From: Actinomycetota bacterium
GTDB lineage: Bacteria; Actinomycetota; Aquicultoria; Aquicultorales; Aquicultoraceae
DNA length: 38,718 nucleotides
NCBI GenBank assembly: GCA_030018005.1
Contig: JASEGT010000016.1
Location: forward strand, 1-38,718
Reading direction: 5' to 3'
A model generated the notes under the pieces. That model saw nothing but the letters and a program-made list of their open reading frames with translations, ran no database searches and was not told the origin of the DNA. The translations under genes were made by a program, and so were the position numbers. Shown here piece after piece: positions 1,141-27,214 of the stretch (the first letter of the stretch is position 1; each line of letters starts with the position of its first letter).

Positions 1141-1551
1141 TTAAGCGACAACCTCATCTATTTCAACTTGTATAGGGTTAAGGGCATTGATGAGGACGGA
1201 GCATCCGGCATCAGTCAACTCCGCGGAACTATTATCAACGCAAGTCTGAGATTTGACCTCTTTCTGACGGTTTAAAACTGCCCTCCAACGCTTATGGCCG
1301 AAATTGCGAGAGAGAATCGACAAGGTGTTGAAGAAAGCCTCATGTTTCTGCGGCTTGATTGTGATGTCCACGAGGACGACGCTGACCTCTGGGTCGCCGC
1401 GTTGGTCATCGAAGGCGCCGCTTAAGCTTCTATCTATCGCGAACTGGAAGTTGCCGTCATGGCAGCTCTCATCGGGCCGGCAGGCGTTGTATTCGACCGT
1501 GTAGAGACCATCCGGCGCCGACGGGTCCATAGCCAGGGTAAGTTTGTTCAC
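1141..1551 (-). CDS. hypothetical protein, 136 aa
   Basis: I do not recognise this protein. It starts at GTG 1549-1551 with an AGAAGGG ribosome site 7 bases upstream and an in-frame TAG 30 bases before the start, which fixes the N-terminus. It is soluble, acidic and has no signal peptide or membrane segment. Four cysteines (two near the N-terminus in ACRPDESCHDG, two in the C-terminal third) do not form an obvious metal site. The middle (VSVVLVDITI) looks like a beta strand of a small alpha/beta domain. It is divergent from the secreted protein at 1708, with about 155 bases between them that could hold promoters for both. A real gene is supported mainly by the ribosome site and the length. 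Confidence 0.5.
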   Translation of the reverse strand: MNKLTLAMDPSAPDGLYTVEYNACRPDESCHDGNFQFAIDRSLSGAFDDQRGDPEVSVVLVDITIKPQKHEAFFNTLSILSRNFGHKRWRAVLNRQKEVKSQTCVDNSSAELTDAGCSVLINALNPIQVEIDEVVA

Positions 1552-1707
1552 GTCGAAACCCTTCTGCCGGTCCGTCAGCTATTACTACACGCCATAGTAA
1601 TTCGCGACCGACTATGATATATTGGGGTTAAATAGCGCGGCTCGCCGGCAACAAATACACGTCGACGAGGCGAGAGTCGTCCCATGTCCGGTATTAGGAG
1701 GATGTAC

Positions 1708-2580
1708 GTGAACAAGACGCTTATACTGTTTCTCATTGTGATGATGGCCGTTTTCGCGGTCGCGCCTGCGGCTGCGTTAGCCGCACCAATCCCTGAGGAG
1801 CTGCACATATCACTGTGGCCCGAGTATGATGACAACCAGATTCTCTTCCTGCAAGGGATTCGATTTCCCGACAACATGCCGCTGCCGATAGAGGTCAAGA
1901 TGGCGGTTCCAAAGGGTATGACTGTGGTTTGGGTTGGTGAGCTTTTAGGCGGCGAGGCGGCTCAGGACATCGAGGCGACGCACACGACCAATCCCAAGGA
2001 CGACTACGACGAGGTCGTCTTTACGCTTACCAAGAGCCGCATAGGCCAGCTAGAGGCGCAATGGGCGGGCTTGAAAATCGACGGCAAAGCGAGAGAGATA
2101 AACCTCGAATGGGTTCAGCGGTATGAGGCACAGCTGGTCACCTTCGACTTCAGGGTACCTACACAGGCATCGGAGATCGAGATGACGCCCCCGGCAAGTA
2201 TGCCCGGAGGGTCGACCAAGGGTCAGGAGTTTATCTCGGTGGCCCCGATGAAGCTTGCCGTAGGGCAAAAGCAGAACTTTGCGATTAAATATCAGCGGAG
2301 CACCAACGCTCCATCGGTATCCGAGCTACTGGCCCAGCAGCAGCCTGGGGCACCGGCGGGCACATCATCGACATCGAGCGCCGCGATAGCCGCCATCGTT
2401 TTCGCGGTAATAGCGGTCGCCATGCTTACTGTCTACAAGATGCACAACGGGCGGCCGGTCACACAAGACGAGCCAAAACAGCAGTGGACGACTGCGCGCA
2501 AAAAGCCGGCTCGGGACAGGGAAGAGACATGCCCAAGTGAGCTGAGCGATGACGATGAGCAAGGCCCCTTCTTTGATTAG
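1708..2580 (+). CDS. secreted, C-terminally membrane-anchored protein of unknown function
   Basis: The frame is open from ATG 1684, but AGGAGG at 1696-1701 sits 6 bases before GTG 1708, so GTG 1708 is the likely start, giving 290 residues. The first 26 residues are a signal peptide (hydrophobic core LILFLIVMMAVFAVAPAAALA, cleavage near Ala-Ala-Pro). An extracytoplasmic region of about 190 residues, predicted mainly beta, follows. A low-complexity Gln/Ala/Ser/Thr linker leads to one transmembrane helix at about residues 225-243 and a charged cytoplasmic tail ending in an acidic cluster. This is the topology of a type I surface protein. I do not recognise the extracellular domain and assign no function. 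Confidence 0.75.
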   Translation: MNKTLILFLIVMMAVFAVAPAAALAAPIPEELHISLWPEYDDNQILFLQGIRFPDNMPLPIEVKMAVPKGMTVVWVGELLGGEAAQDIEATHTTNPKDDYDEVVFTLTKSRIGQLEAQWAGLKIDGKAREINLEWVQRYEAQLVTFDFRVPTQASEIEMTPPASMPGGSTKGQEFISVAPMKLAVGQKQNFAIKYQRSTNAPSVSELLAQQQPGAPAGTSSTSSAAIAAIVFAVIAVAMLTVYKMHNGRPVTQDEPKQQWTTARKKPARDREETCPSELSDDDEQGPFFD

Positions 2581-26107: not shown

Positions 26108-26638
26108 ATGAACAGAGTCATTCTTGACGTAAAAGATATTTTGGGAGATGTCGGCGCAGAAAAGAGTTATAGCTTCGAGCGCGACTTTAACCCGATCATA
26201 TCGGAGACGACGAAGCTCGCATTTAGCAAGCCGGTCAATTTCGATATAATAATCGAGAATACGGGGCGCGGCGTTCGCGTGAAAGGCCGCATCTCTTCGG
26301 CGGTGTTTCTTGAGTGCAGCCGCTGTCTCAACGAGTTCGAGTTTCCTGTCGAGTGGGAGATAGATGAGGTGTTCGTGACCGAAACGATGCCCGGTGAAGA
26401 TGTCTACACAATAGACGAGACACGGATAGACCTCGGGCCACCGGCAGAGGAAGCATTTGTCCTTGCCGTACCGATGAAACCGCTCTGCCATGACGCCTGC
26501 GCCGGTCTCTGTCCGGTATGCGGCGAGCCGCTCGACGAGCACCACAGGGCACACGAGGAAGAAAAAGTCGACGCCAGGATGGAAGCCTTACGGCAGCTTC
26601 TCGAAGATAAAGGCGGGGAAAGTGCGAGAAAAGCTTAA
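26108..26638 (+). CDS. yceD: DUF177 / YceD family protein
   Basis: 176 residues from ATG 26108 with GAAGGCAGGG upstream. DUF177 proteins are linked to 23S rRNA accumulation or ribosome assembly. Two cysteine motifs are seen: CSRC near residue 75 (ISSAVFLECSRCLNEFEFPV) and CHDACAGLCPVCGEPL near 130-145, a probable zinc site of the C-terminal half. The family is normally followed by rpmF, but here rpmF is absent and a tandem repeat, a hairpin and opposite-strand genes follow. It is transcribed apart from the coaD operon behind its own terminator-separated leader. Confidence 0.9.
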   Translation: MNRVILDVKDILGDVGAEKSYSFERDFNPIISETTKLAFSKPVNFDIIIENTGRGVRVKGRISSAVFLECSRCLNEFEFPVEWEIDEVFVTETMPGEDVYTIDETRIDLGPPAEEAFVLAVPMKPLCHDACAGLCPVCGEPLDEHHRAHEEEKVDARMEALRQLLEDKGGESARKA

Positions 26639-26639
26639 G

Positions 26640-26661
26640 TGTAATGGCTGTGTAATGGCTG
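26640..26661. repeat. tandem 11-bp repeat downstream of DUF177
   Basis: TGTAATGGCTG occurs twice in perfect tandem (26640-26650 and 26651-26661), starting two bases after the DUF177 stop codon. Confidence 0.7.
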
Positions 26662-26700
26662 TGCGCTCGGGGGTTCGAATACTGGTGCCCCAGCGACAAG

Positions 26701-26727
26701 AAGCCCTGCCTTGGATAGCAGGGCTTT
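26701..26727 (+). terminator. hairpin with short T tract after DUF177
   Basis: AAGCCCTGC (26701-26709) and GCAGGGCTT (26718-26726) form a perfect 9-bp stem with loop CTTGGATA. Only TTT follows, then AAACCTG, so termination strength is moderate. It may serve both DUF177 and, as a reverse-strand hairpin, the gene at 26750. Confidence 0.6.
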
Positions 26728-26749
26728 AAACCTGTTTATATCGCTCTTC

Positions 26750-27160
26750 TTATGCTGCCTTCTTCCGCACGATAACATCTGGTCTTACGTCCGGCTCTAA
26801 TTGAAGGCCTTCCACGTACTTGTTATACAAGCTACCCGCACTAATAGAATTGATTAGTTTCTCGATCTTCGCATCATCATAGCCCAACTGCTTCAACATA
26901 GCAGTATCGAAATTAATTCAGTAGGAGCACTGGTTAGTCACATCTACGGCCAAGTTGAAGAGGTAGTAGGCCTCCTTGCCCCAGTACTCTTCATCTTGCT
27001 TTATACCTTCCAATGCCGCCTTCATGTTCTCAGGATTATGGGCTAGTGCTTTAAAGACATTGGGCACAAAATCTAAGCCAAAATGTTGCTTGACCTCATT
27101 ATACACGGCTCTAACTTCGGCAGTTGCTTCGTTTTCCTCGATAAGATGAATTGTTGTCAA
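26750..27160 (-). CDS. AhpD-like / carboxymuconolactone decarboxylase-family protein, probable selenoprotein (UGA = Sec)
   Basis: Start: TTG 27158-27160 with GGGGAGGTGA just upstream (7 bases after GGAGG); the frame is also open from ATG 27242-27244, but that lies within the promoter. After 80 residues comes an in-frame TGA (26918-26920), then 55 more codons to TAA 26750-26752, giving 136 residues. The N-terminal part has VPNVFKALAHNPENMKAALE and VDVTNQCSY, the carboxymuconolactone decarboxylase/AhpD pattern. The family's redox site is C-x-x-C; here it is Cys78-Ser-Tyr-UGA81, followed by INFDTAMLKQLGYDDAKIEK, clearly the continuing family sequence. The UGA therefore replaces the second redox Cys, as in known CxxU AhpD-like selenoproteins. 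The usual His four residues further on is Asp. The alternative is a nonsense mutation in a pseudogene, but no other lesion is present. Peroxidase or thiol-redox activity is inferred. Confidence 0.75.
26887..26905 (-). promoter_or_regulatory. candidate SECIS hairpin after the UGA codon
   Basis: On the minus strand ACTGCT (26905-26900) and AGCAGT (26892-26887) form a 6-bp stem with loop ATGTTGA. It begins 12 bases after the UGA, so the loop is 18 bases from it, within the range usual for bacterial SECIS elements. The loop does not begin with the expected G, so the fit is imperfect. Confidence 0.45.
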
Positions 27161-27214
27161 CTCGTCACCTCCCCTCTGTACAAGCTGATGGTTTATACCC
27201 GGCGGTTTTGATCT

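Follow-up and report, generated by a model that had tools for sequence, protein, structure and literature searches.

A gene for an AhpD-like protein on the minus strand of the window (the whole stretch of DNA analyzed here, 38,718 nucleotides from an Actinomycetota bacterium) carries an in-frame UGA at codon 81, which is most likely read as selenocysteine (Sec). A CxxU AhpD-like selenoprotein had been the sequence-only reading of this gene, and as a candidate defined by sequence it is now supported by an intact frame, the Sec machinery of the genome, a Sec/Cys pair with the closest homologue, nucleotide constraint around the UGA, and purifying selection past it.

Gene Frame and Flanking Signals

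The gene consists of 136 codons, read directly on the minus strand from a TTG start at 27160 to a TAA at 26752-26750. Codon 81 is TGA (the complement of 26918-26920) in the context Cys78-Ser-Tyr80-UGA81, and is followed by 55 sense codons up to the TAA in a frame with no other lesion. The coordinates, Cys78, in-frame UGA, and Asp of the sequence-only reading are all correct as judged from the frame; its location lacked only the strand. The ribosome-binding site is strong, and a terminator-like repeat, which is absent from the list of the automatic scan, lies 3′ of the stop codon. The closest homologue, L019, likewise has AGGGAGG before a TTG start and a similar inverted repeat 3′ of its stop codon. 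The features are as follows:

27165..27174, minus strand: ribosome-binding site GGGGAGGTGA, 4 nt 5′ of the TTG (read directly)
26750..27160, minus strand: AhpD-like gene, with the UGA predicted to be read through as Sec (frame read directly; 72%-identical full-length homologue L019)
26882..26947, minus strand: nucleotide-constrained block around the UGA, codons 72-93 (no synonymous change vs L019)
26918..26920, minus strand: UGA codon 81, predicted Sec, second position of the CxxC/CxxU pair (read directly, and from the homologue column)
26887..26905, minus strand: SECIS-like hairpin ACUGCU-AUGUUGA-AGCAGU, nt 16-34 if the U of the UGA is nt 1 (predicted by folding)
26701..26726, minus strand: terminator-like inverted repeat AAGCCCTGC/GCAGGGCTT, 3′ of the TAA (read by eye)

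Translation table 11 closes the frame at the UGA to give 80 residues, and a standard gene finder or annotation would cut the gene off there. That the gene simply encodes an 80-residue protein ending at the UGA is nevertheless hardly credible, as the 3′ part, which contains the latter half of the AhpD core, is under purifying selection and is present in the three homologues L019, L022, and L023, and the terminator-like repeat sits 3′ of the TAA rather than of the UGA.

Rfam gave no match anywhere in the window, and a suspected tRNA or att remnant ("ggttcgaat" near 26670) was rejected when ARAGORN found no tRNA. No further convincing selenoprotein emerged from a scan for U-near-C motifs that covered the window and ten other stretches of sequence; the Sec of selD was found separately.

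The Genome Encodes the Selenocysteine Machinery

A Sec-containing product would require SelA, SelB, SelD, and tRNA-Sec, as the sequence-only reading had pointed out, and all four are present. The genes lie together on a single contig (C48) of the draft assembly, which has 128 contigs and a completeness of 99.4%. The matches for selA (E 8.7e-188) and selB (E 5.2e-114) are strong, and ARAGORN confirms a tRNA-SeC with the anticodon tca. The selD frame itself carries one in-frame TGA, in the context FATKSG-U-AAKMGPGD, which is a usual Sec site of SelD. The gene selA is present in 28 of the 36 genomes of this actinobacterial class, and in nearly all of the good ones (24 of 26). To this class the AhpD-like gene adds a probable selenoprotein.

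The UGA Column in Homologues

The closest homologue, L019, is full length and 72% identical; it comes from the MAG Kmv33 (Actinomycetota, G010), which belongs to the same family and another genus. Its codon 81 is TGT (Cys). Aligning homologues at the UGA column, as had been proposed, therefore pairs the predicted Sec with Cys at this codon, with homology on both sides of the UGA. A more distant homologue, L023 (34% identical), also has Cys in this column, and L022 (49% identical) has Asn. The L022 gene (match 1501-1905, minus strand, in G011) is otherwise intact and reads C-G-Y-N, with Asn replacing the second redox cysteine, which suggests that its lineage tolerates the loss of the CxxC pair. 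No UGA-bearing ortholog of the gene was found among the 36 genomes of the class and 396 genomes of the phylum, and the latter search gave no ortholog outside the class. Among viral contigs, 71 pattern hits included none confirmed as a UGA ortholog, and the plasmid search likewise gave no UGA ortholog, only CMD proteins of ∼31% identity that are mostly rhizobial.

The UGA might also stem from a sequencing or assembly error at a codon that is truly TGT or TGC. The assembly is a draft in 128 contigs, but an error would have to strike by chance the 1 codon of 136 at which a UGA makes biological sense, in a frame that has no other irregularity, and we consider this explanation very improbable.

Nucleotide Constraint and Selection around the UGA

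Codons 72-93 of the window gene and L019 comprise 20 consecutive identical degenerate codons with 0 synonymous changes. When the synonymous changes between the two genes are shuffled over codons, a run of this kind has p 0.0008, or 0.0006 when shuffling is kept within degeneracy classes. Elsewhere synonymous sites are near saturation, with a proportion different of 0.77 for codons 2-70 and 0.67 for codons 94-136. On this comparison, the freeze is constraint on the nucleotides themselves, centred on the UGA. The block reaches ∼9 codons 5′ of the UGA, a part that a downstream SECIS does not explain; it may reflect a longer element or recombination between the lineages over the codons 72-93 stretch.

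Past the UGA, dN/dS lies between about 0.13 (codons 94-136) and 0.19 (codons 82-136), and amino acid changes number 3 on the window branch vs 5 on the G010 branch, with no excess on the window branch. These values indicate purifying selection on the part of the gene that follows the UGA. In addition, a Cys version of the gene could acquire a stop by 60 different single-base changes, of which just 2 put TGA on a CxxC cysteine. Taken with the Cys column in L019 and the lack of synonymous change in the flanks, this argues that a UGA at codon 81 is more than chance.

These results are hard to reconcile with a recent nonsense mutation of the Cys codon, by which a dispensable gene would be turning into a pseudogene that yields only a truncated, inactive 80-residue product. 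A single base separates TGT from TGA, and 5′ of the UGA, amino acid changes number 9 on the window branch vs 3 on the G010 branch, both of which fit this explanation. Yet the placement of the stop, the absence of another lesion, the synonymous freeze centred on codon 81, the constraint on the 3′ sequence, and a SECIS-like hairpin favored in the window gene and not in its Cys homologue all weigh against it, and we regard it as unlikely.

Decayed Relatives and Genomic Place

What favors a nonsense mutation most is the fate of the gene in related genomes. Two sister genera hold broken relics: the G006 copy (L025/L030, G006:C31) has frameshifts and extra stops, and the G005 copy (L026, G005:C27) is a 3′ fragment only. 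Three genomes of the same genus give no match to the gene at all. Its genomic place is not conserved either. The decayed and absent copies and this non-conserved place show that the gene is dispensable in its family and has died at least once. Homologues with frameshifts or stops in relatives had been named beforehand as evidence that would count against Sec; this holds in part, for G006 and G005. The copy in the window, however, has no lesion besides the UGA, and its 3′ part evolves as a working gene would.

A conserved operon around the gene was considered and rejected, for the gene that comes after yceD in the three same-genus genomes is rpmF, not the AhpD-like gene. At 26600-26750 of the window, the AhpD-like gene takes the place of rpmF, which does not adjoin yceD there, and the locus has thus been rearranged relative to the same-genus genomes.

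A SECIS-like Hairpin 3′ of the UGA

In the predicted hairpin, the stem begins 12 nt past the UGA and the loop at nt 22. The pair probability is ∼0.8 in a 120-nt context and 0.06 in L019, where another fold is favored. A published bSECIS model asks for a loop of 3-9 nt, a stem of 4-16 bp, a loop located 16-37 nt after the UGA, a G in the first two loop positions, and an MFE ≤ -7.5 (PMC13188914). With a stem of 6 and a loop of 7, the hairpin falls within these limits, as does its distance. Its G is third in the loop rather than first or second, a position that would shift only if an A.A mismatch and a U.G pair were formed. Its energy is -6.4 kcal/mol alone and -8.1 for 58 nt, against the model limit of -7.5. 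An equally good hairpin is found at ∼5% of the codon positions of genes in the window and in 12% of synonymous recodings, and the 58-nt segment past the UGA folds no better than shuffles (not significant). The distance between the UGA and the hairpin is close to that of other AhpD-like genes of Actinomycetota in which a CxxU aligns. We therefore describe the hairpin as SECIS-like, a predicted element with an approximate fit to the bSECIS model that is a weak sign alone.

Protein Family and Active Site

Profile searches were run with the read-through translation, in which Cys replaced Sec. TIGR01926 matches with an E of 2.4e-11 and 43.8 bits, below the family cutoff of 81.8 bits; TIGR00778 and PF02627 also match weakly and below cutoff, and the NF053654 profile gives E 0.0005 and 19.8 bits vs a cutoff of 310. 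The best solved relative, found with a profile of four homologues, is the AhpD-core protein 2OUW (E 5e-17), on which C78 and U81 align with the CxxC pair. The predicted structure is all-helical with a mean pLDDT of 71, low at 78-81 and after 115, and its Foldseek neighbors are AhpD proteins and haloacid dehalogenases with weak E-values. The protein thus has the CxxC (here CxxU) core helix pair and the AhpD fold of the AhpD-like (CMD) family, as seen from the 2OUW match and a fold model of modest confidence.

The proton relay of M. tuberculosis AhpD consists of Glu118, Cys130, His132, Cys133, and His137 (PMC3141380). In the alignment to 2OUW, Tyr66 and Asp85 occupy the positions of the relay Glu and His, and the window protein accordingly lacks the Glu118 and His137 that mark AhpD proper. 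The Asp had been thought to make this variant distinct. Asp85 is real, but it is common to the two closest homologues, including the Cys-containing L019, which makes it a subfamily trait; Tyr66 is shared with the closest one.

Proposed Mode of Action

We infer Sec insertion, a SECIS role for the hairpin, and redox chemistry as follows. UGA81 would be decoded as Sec by the SelB and tRNA-Sec of the cell, directed by the hairpin just 3′ of the codon, to give a 136-residue AhpD-like redox protein with the active site Cys78-Ser-Tyr-Sec81. The selenol would stand in for the second of the two AhpD CxxC cysteines and would work together with Cys78 in peroxide or disulfide reduction. The low pKa of a selenol could make the missing Glu/His relay unimportant; the Cys homologue L019 is without that relay too.

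Sec decoding is favored on the strength of the 2 in 60 stops, the freeze of codons 72-93, selection on the 3′ part, the hairpin, and the aligned CxxU genes in the phylum. Set against it are the missing second UGA ortholog, the decayed copies in G006 and G005, the absence from same-genus genomes, the Asn of L022, the approximate hairpin, and the upstream freeze.

With two intact close sequences, either Sec or Cys may be ancestral in this pair. The ancestor may have had Sec together with a cis element spanning codons 72-93, and the G010 lineage would then have changed recently to Cys by one base, losing the fold while keeping the sequence almost intact; this would imply an insertion signal that reaches 5′ of the UGA. 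A frozen sequence with a disfavored hairpin in the Cys gene fits such a loss of Sec in G010, a history that we put forward tentatively and consider rather doubtful. SECIS remnants have been reported in Cys homologues (PMC1794560).

Comparison with Known Systems

Other UGA-bearing relatives occur in the phylum. NF053654-type genes, which are paralogous to the window gene, carry C-x-F-UGA in the aligned column, with stable hairpins as well. YciW/AhpD-like genes of this type and their relatives (L062-L068, L072, L073) are found in several Actinomycetota genomes with a stable hairpin after the UGA, for example CGCUGC-CGUGA-GCAGCG, and some fall outside the curated NF053654 cutoff. Two genomes of the same family hold a CMD-domain gene with two in-frame UGAs (L074, G004:C38; L075, G007:C52, minus strand), one as CQP-UGA at the aligned column in the AhpD core and the other at the C terminus, shortly before the stop, as EC-UGA-TP or DC-UGA-TP. 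By its sequence, this gene resembles the double selenoproteins MduS/MbdU/ArsM-AhpD (NF045649, NF045648, NF041537) and may be a short relative of them, although it scores far below their cutoffs.

Marine surveys have described CxxU AhpD-like selenoproteins (PMC1088965, PMC2398784), and a TIGR01926-type CxxU AhpD-like selenoprotein has been listed with the example MCB9421940.1 (PMC13188914). The window gene is a divergent further case of these and not a new kind. It shares the family match and the CxxU motif with the TIGR01926-type selenoprotein, with MCB9421940.1 compared by description only, and differs in being below cutoff and shorter and in its relay positions, where Asp replaces His and Tyr replaces Glu. 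With the YciW-related (seleno)protein of NF053654 it shares a CxxU in the aligned CMD core, and the hairpin loop of those genes begins ∼nt 21 after the UGA; they encode a longer protein with a C-x-F-U motif and have a more stable hairpin with a 3-5 nt loop. The AhpD and AhpD-core proteins (M. tuberculosis AhpD, PA0269, 2OUW) share the CxxC core with it, but both their two-cysteine pair and their Glu/His proton relay (PMC3141380) are changed or missing in the window protein. Compared with L019, codons 72-93 are nearly identical as DNA, and the homologue differs in having TGT at codon 81 and in not favoring the SECIS-like fold. This Sec/Cys pair with its frozen cis region is the notable detail of the window gene, and the two genes offer a natural pair for studying the benefit of Sec in an AhpD-like enzyme without the usual relay, and SECIS decay.
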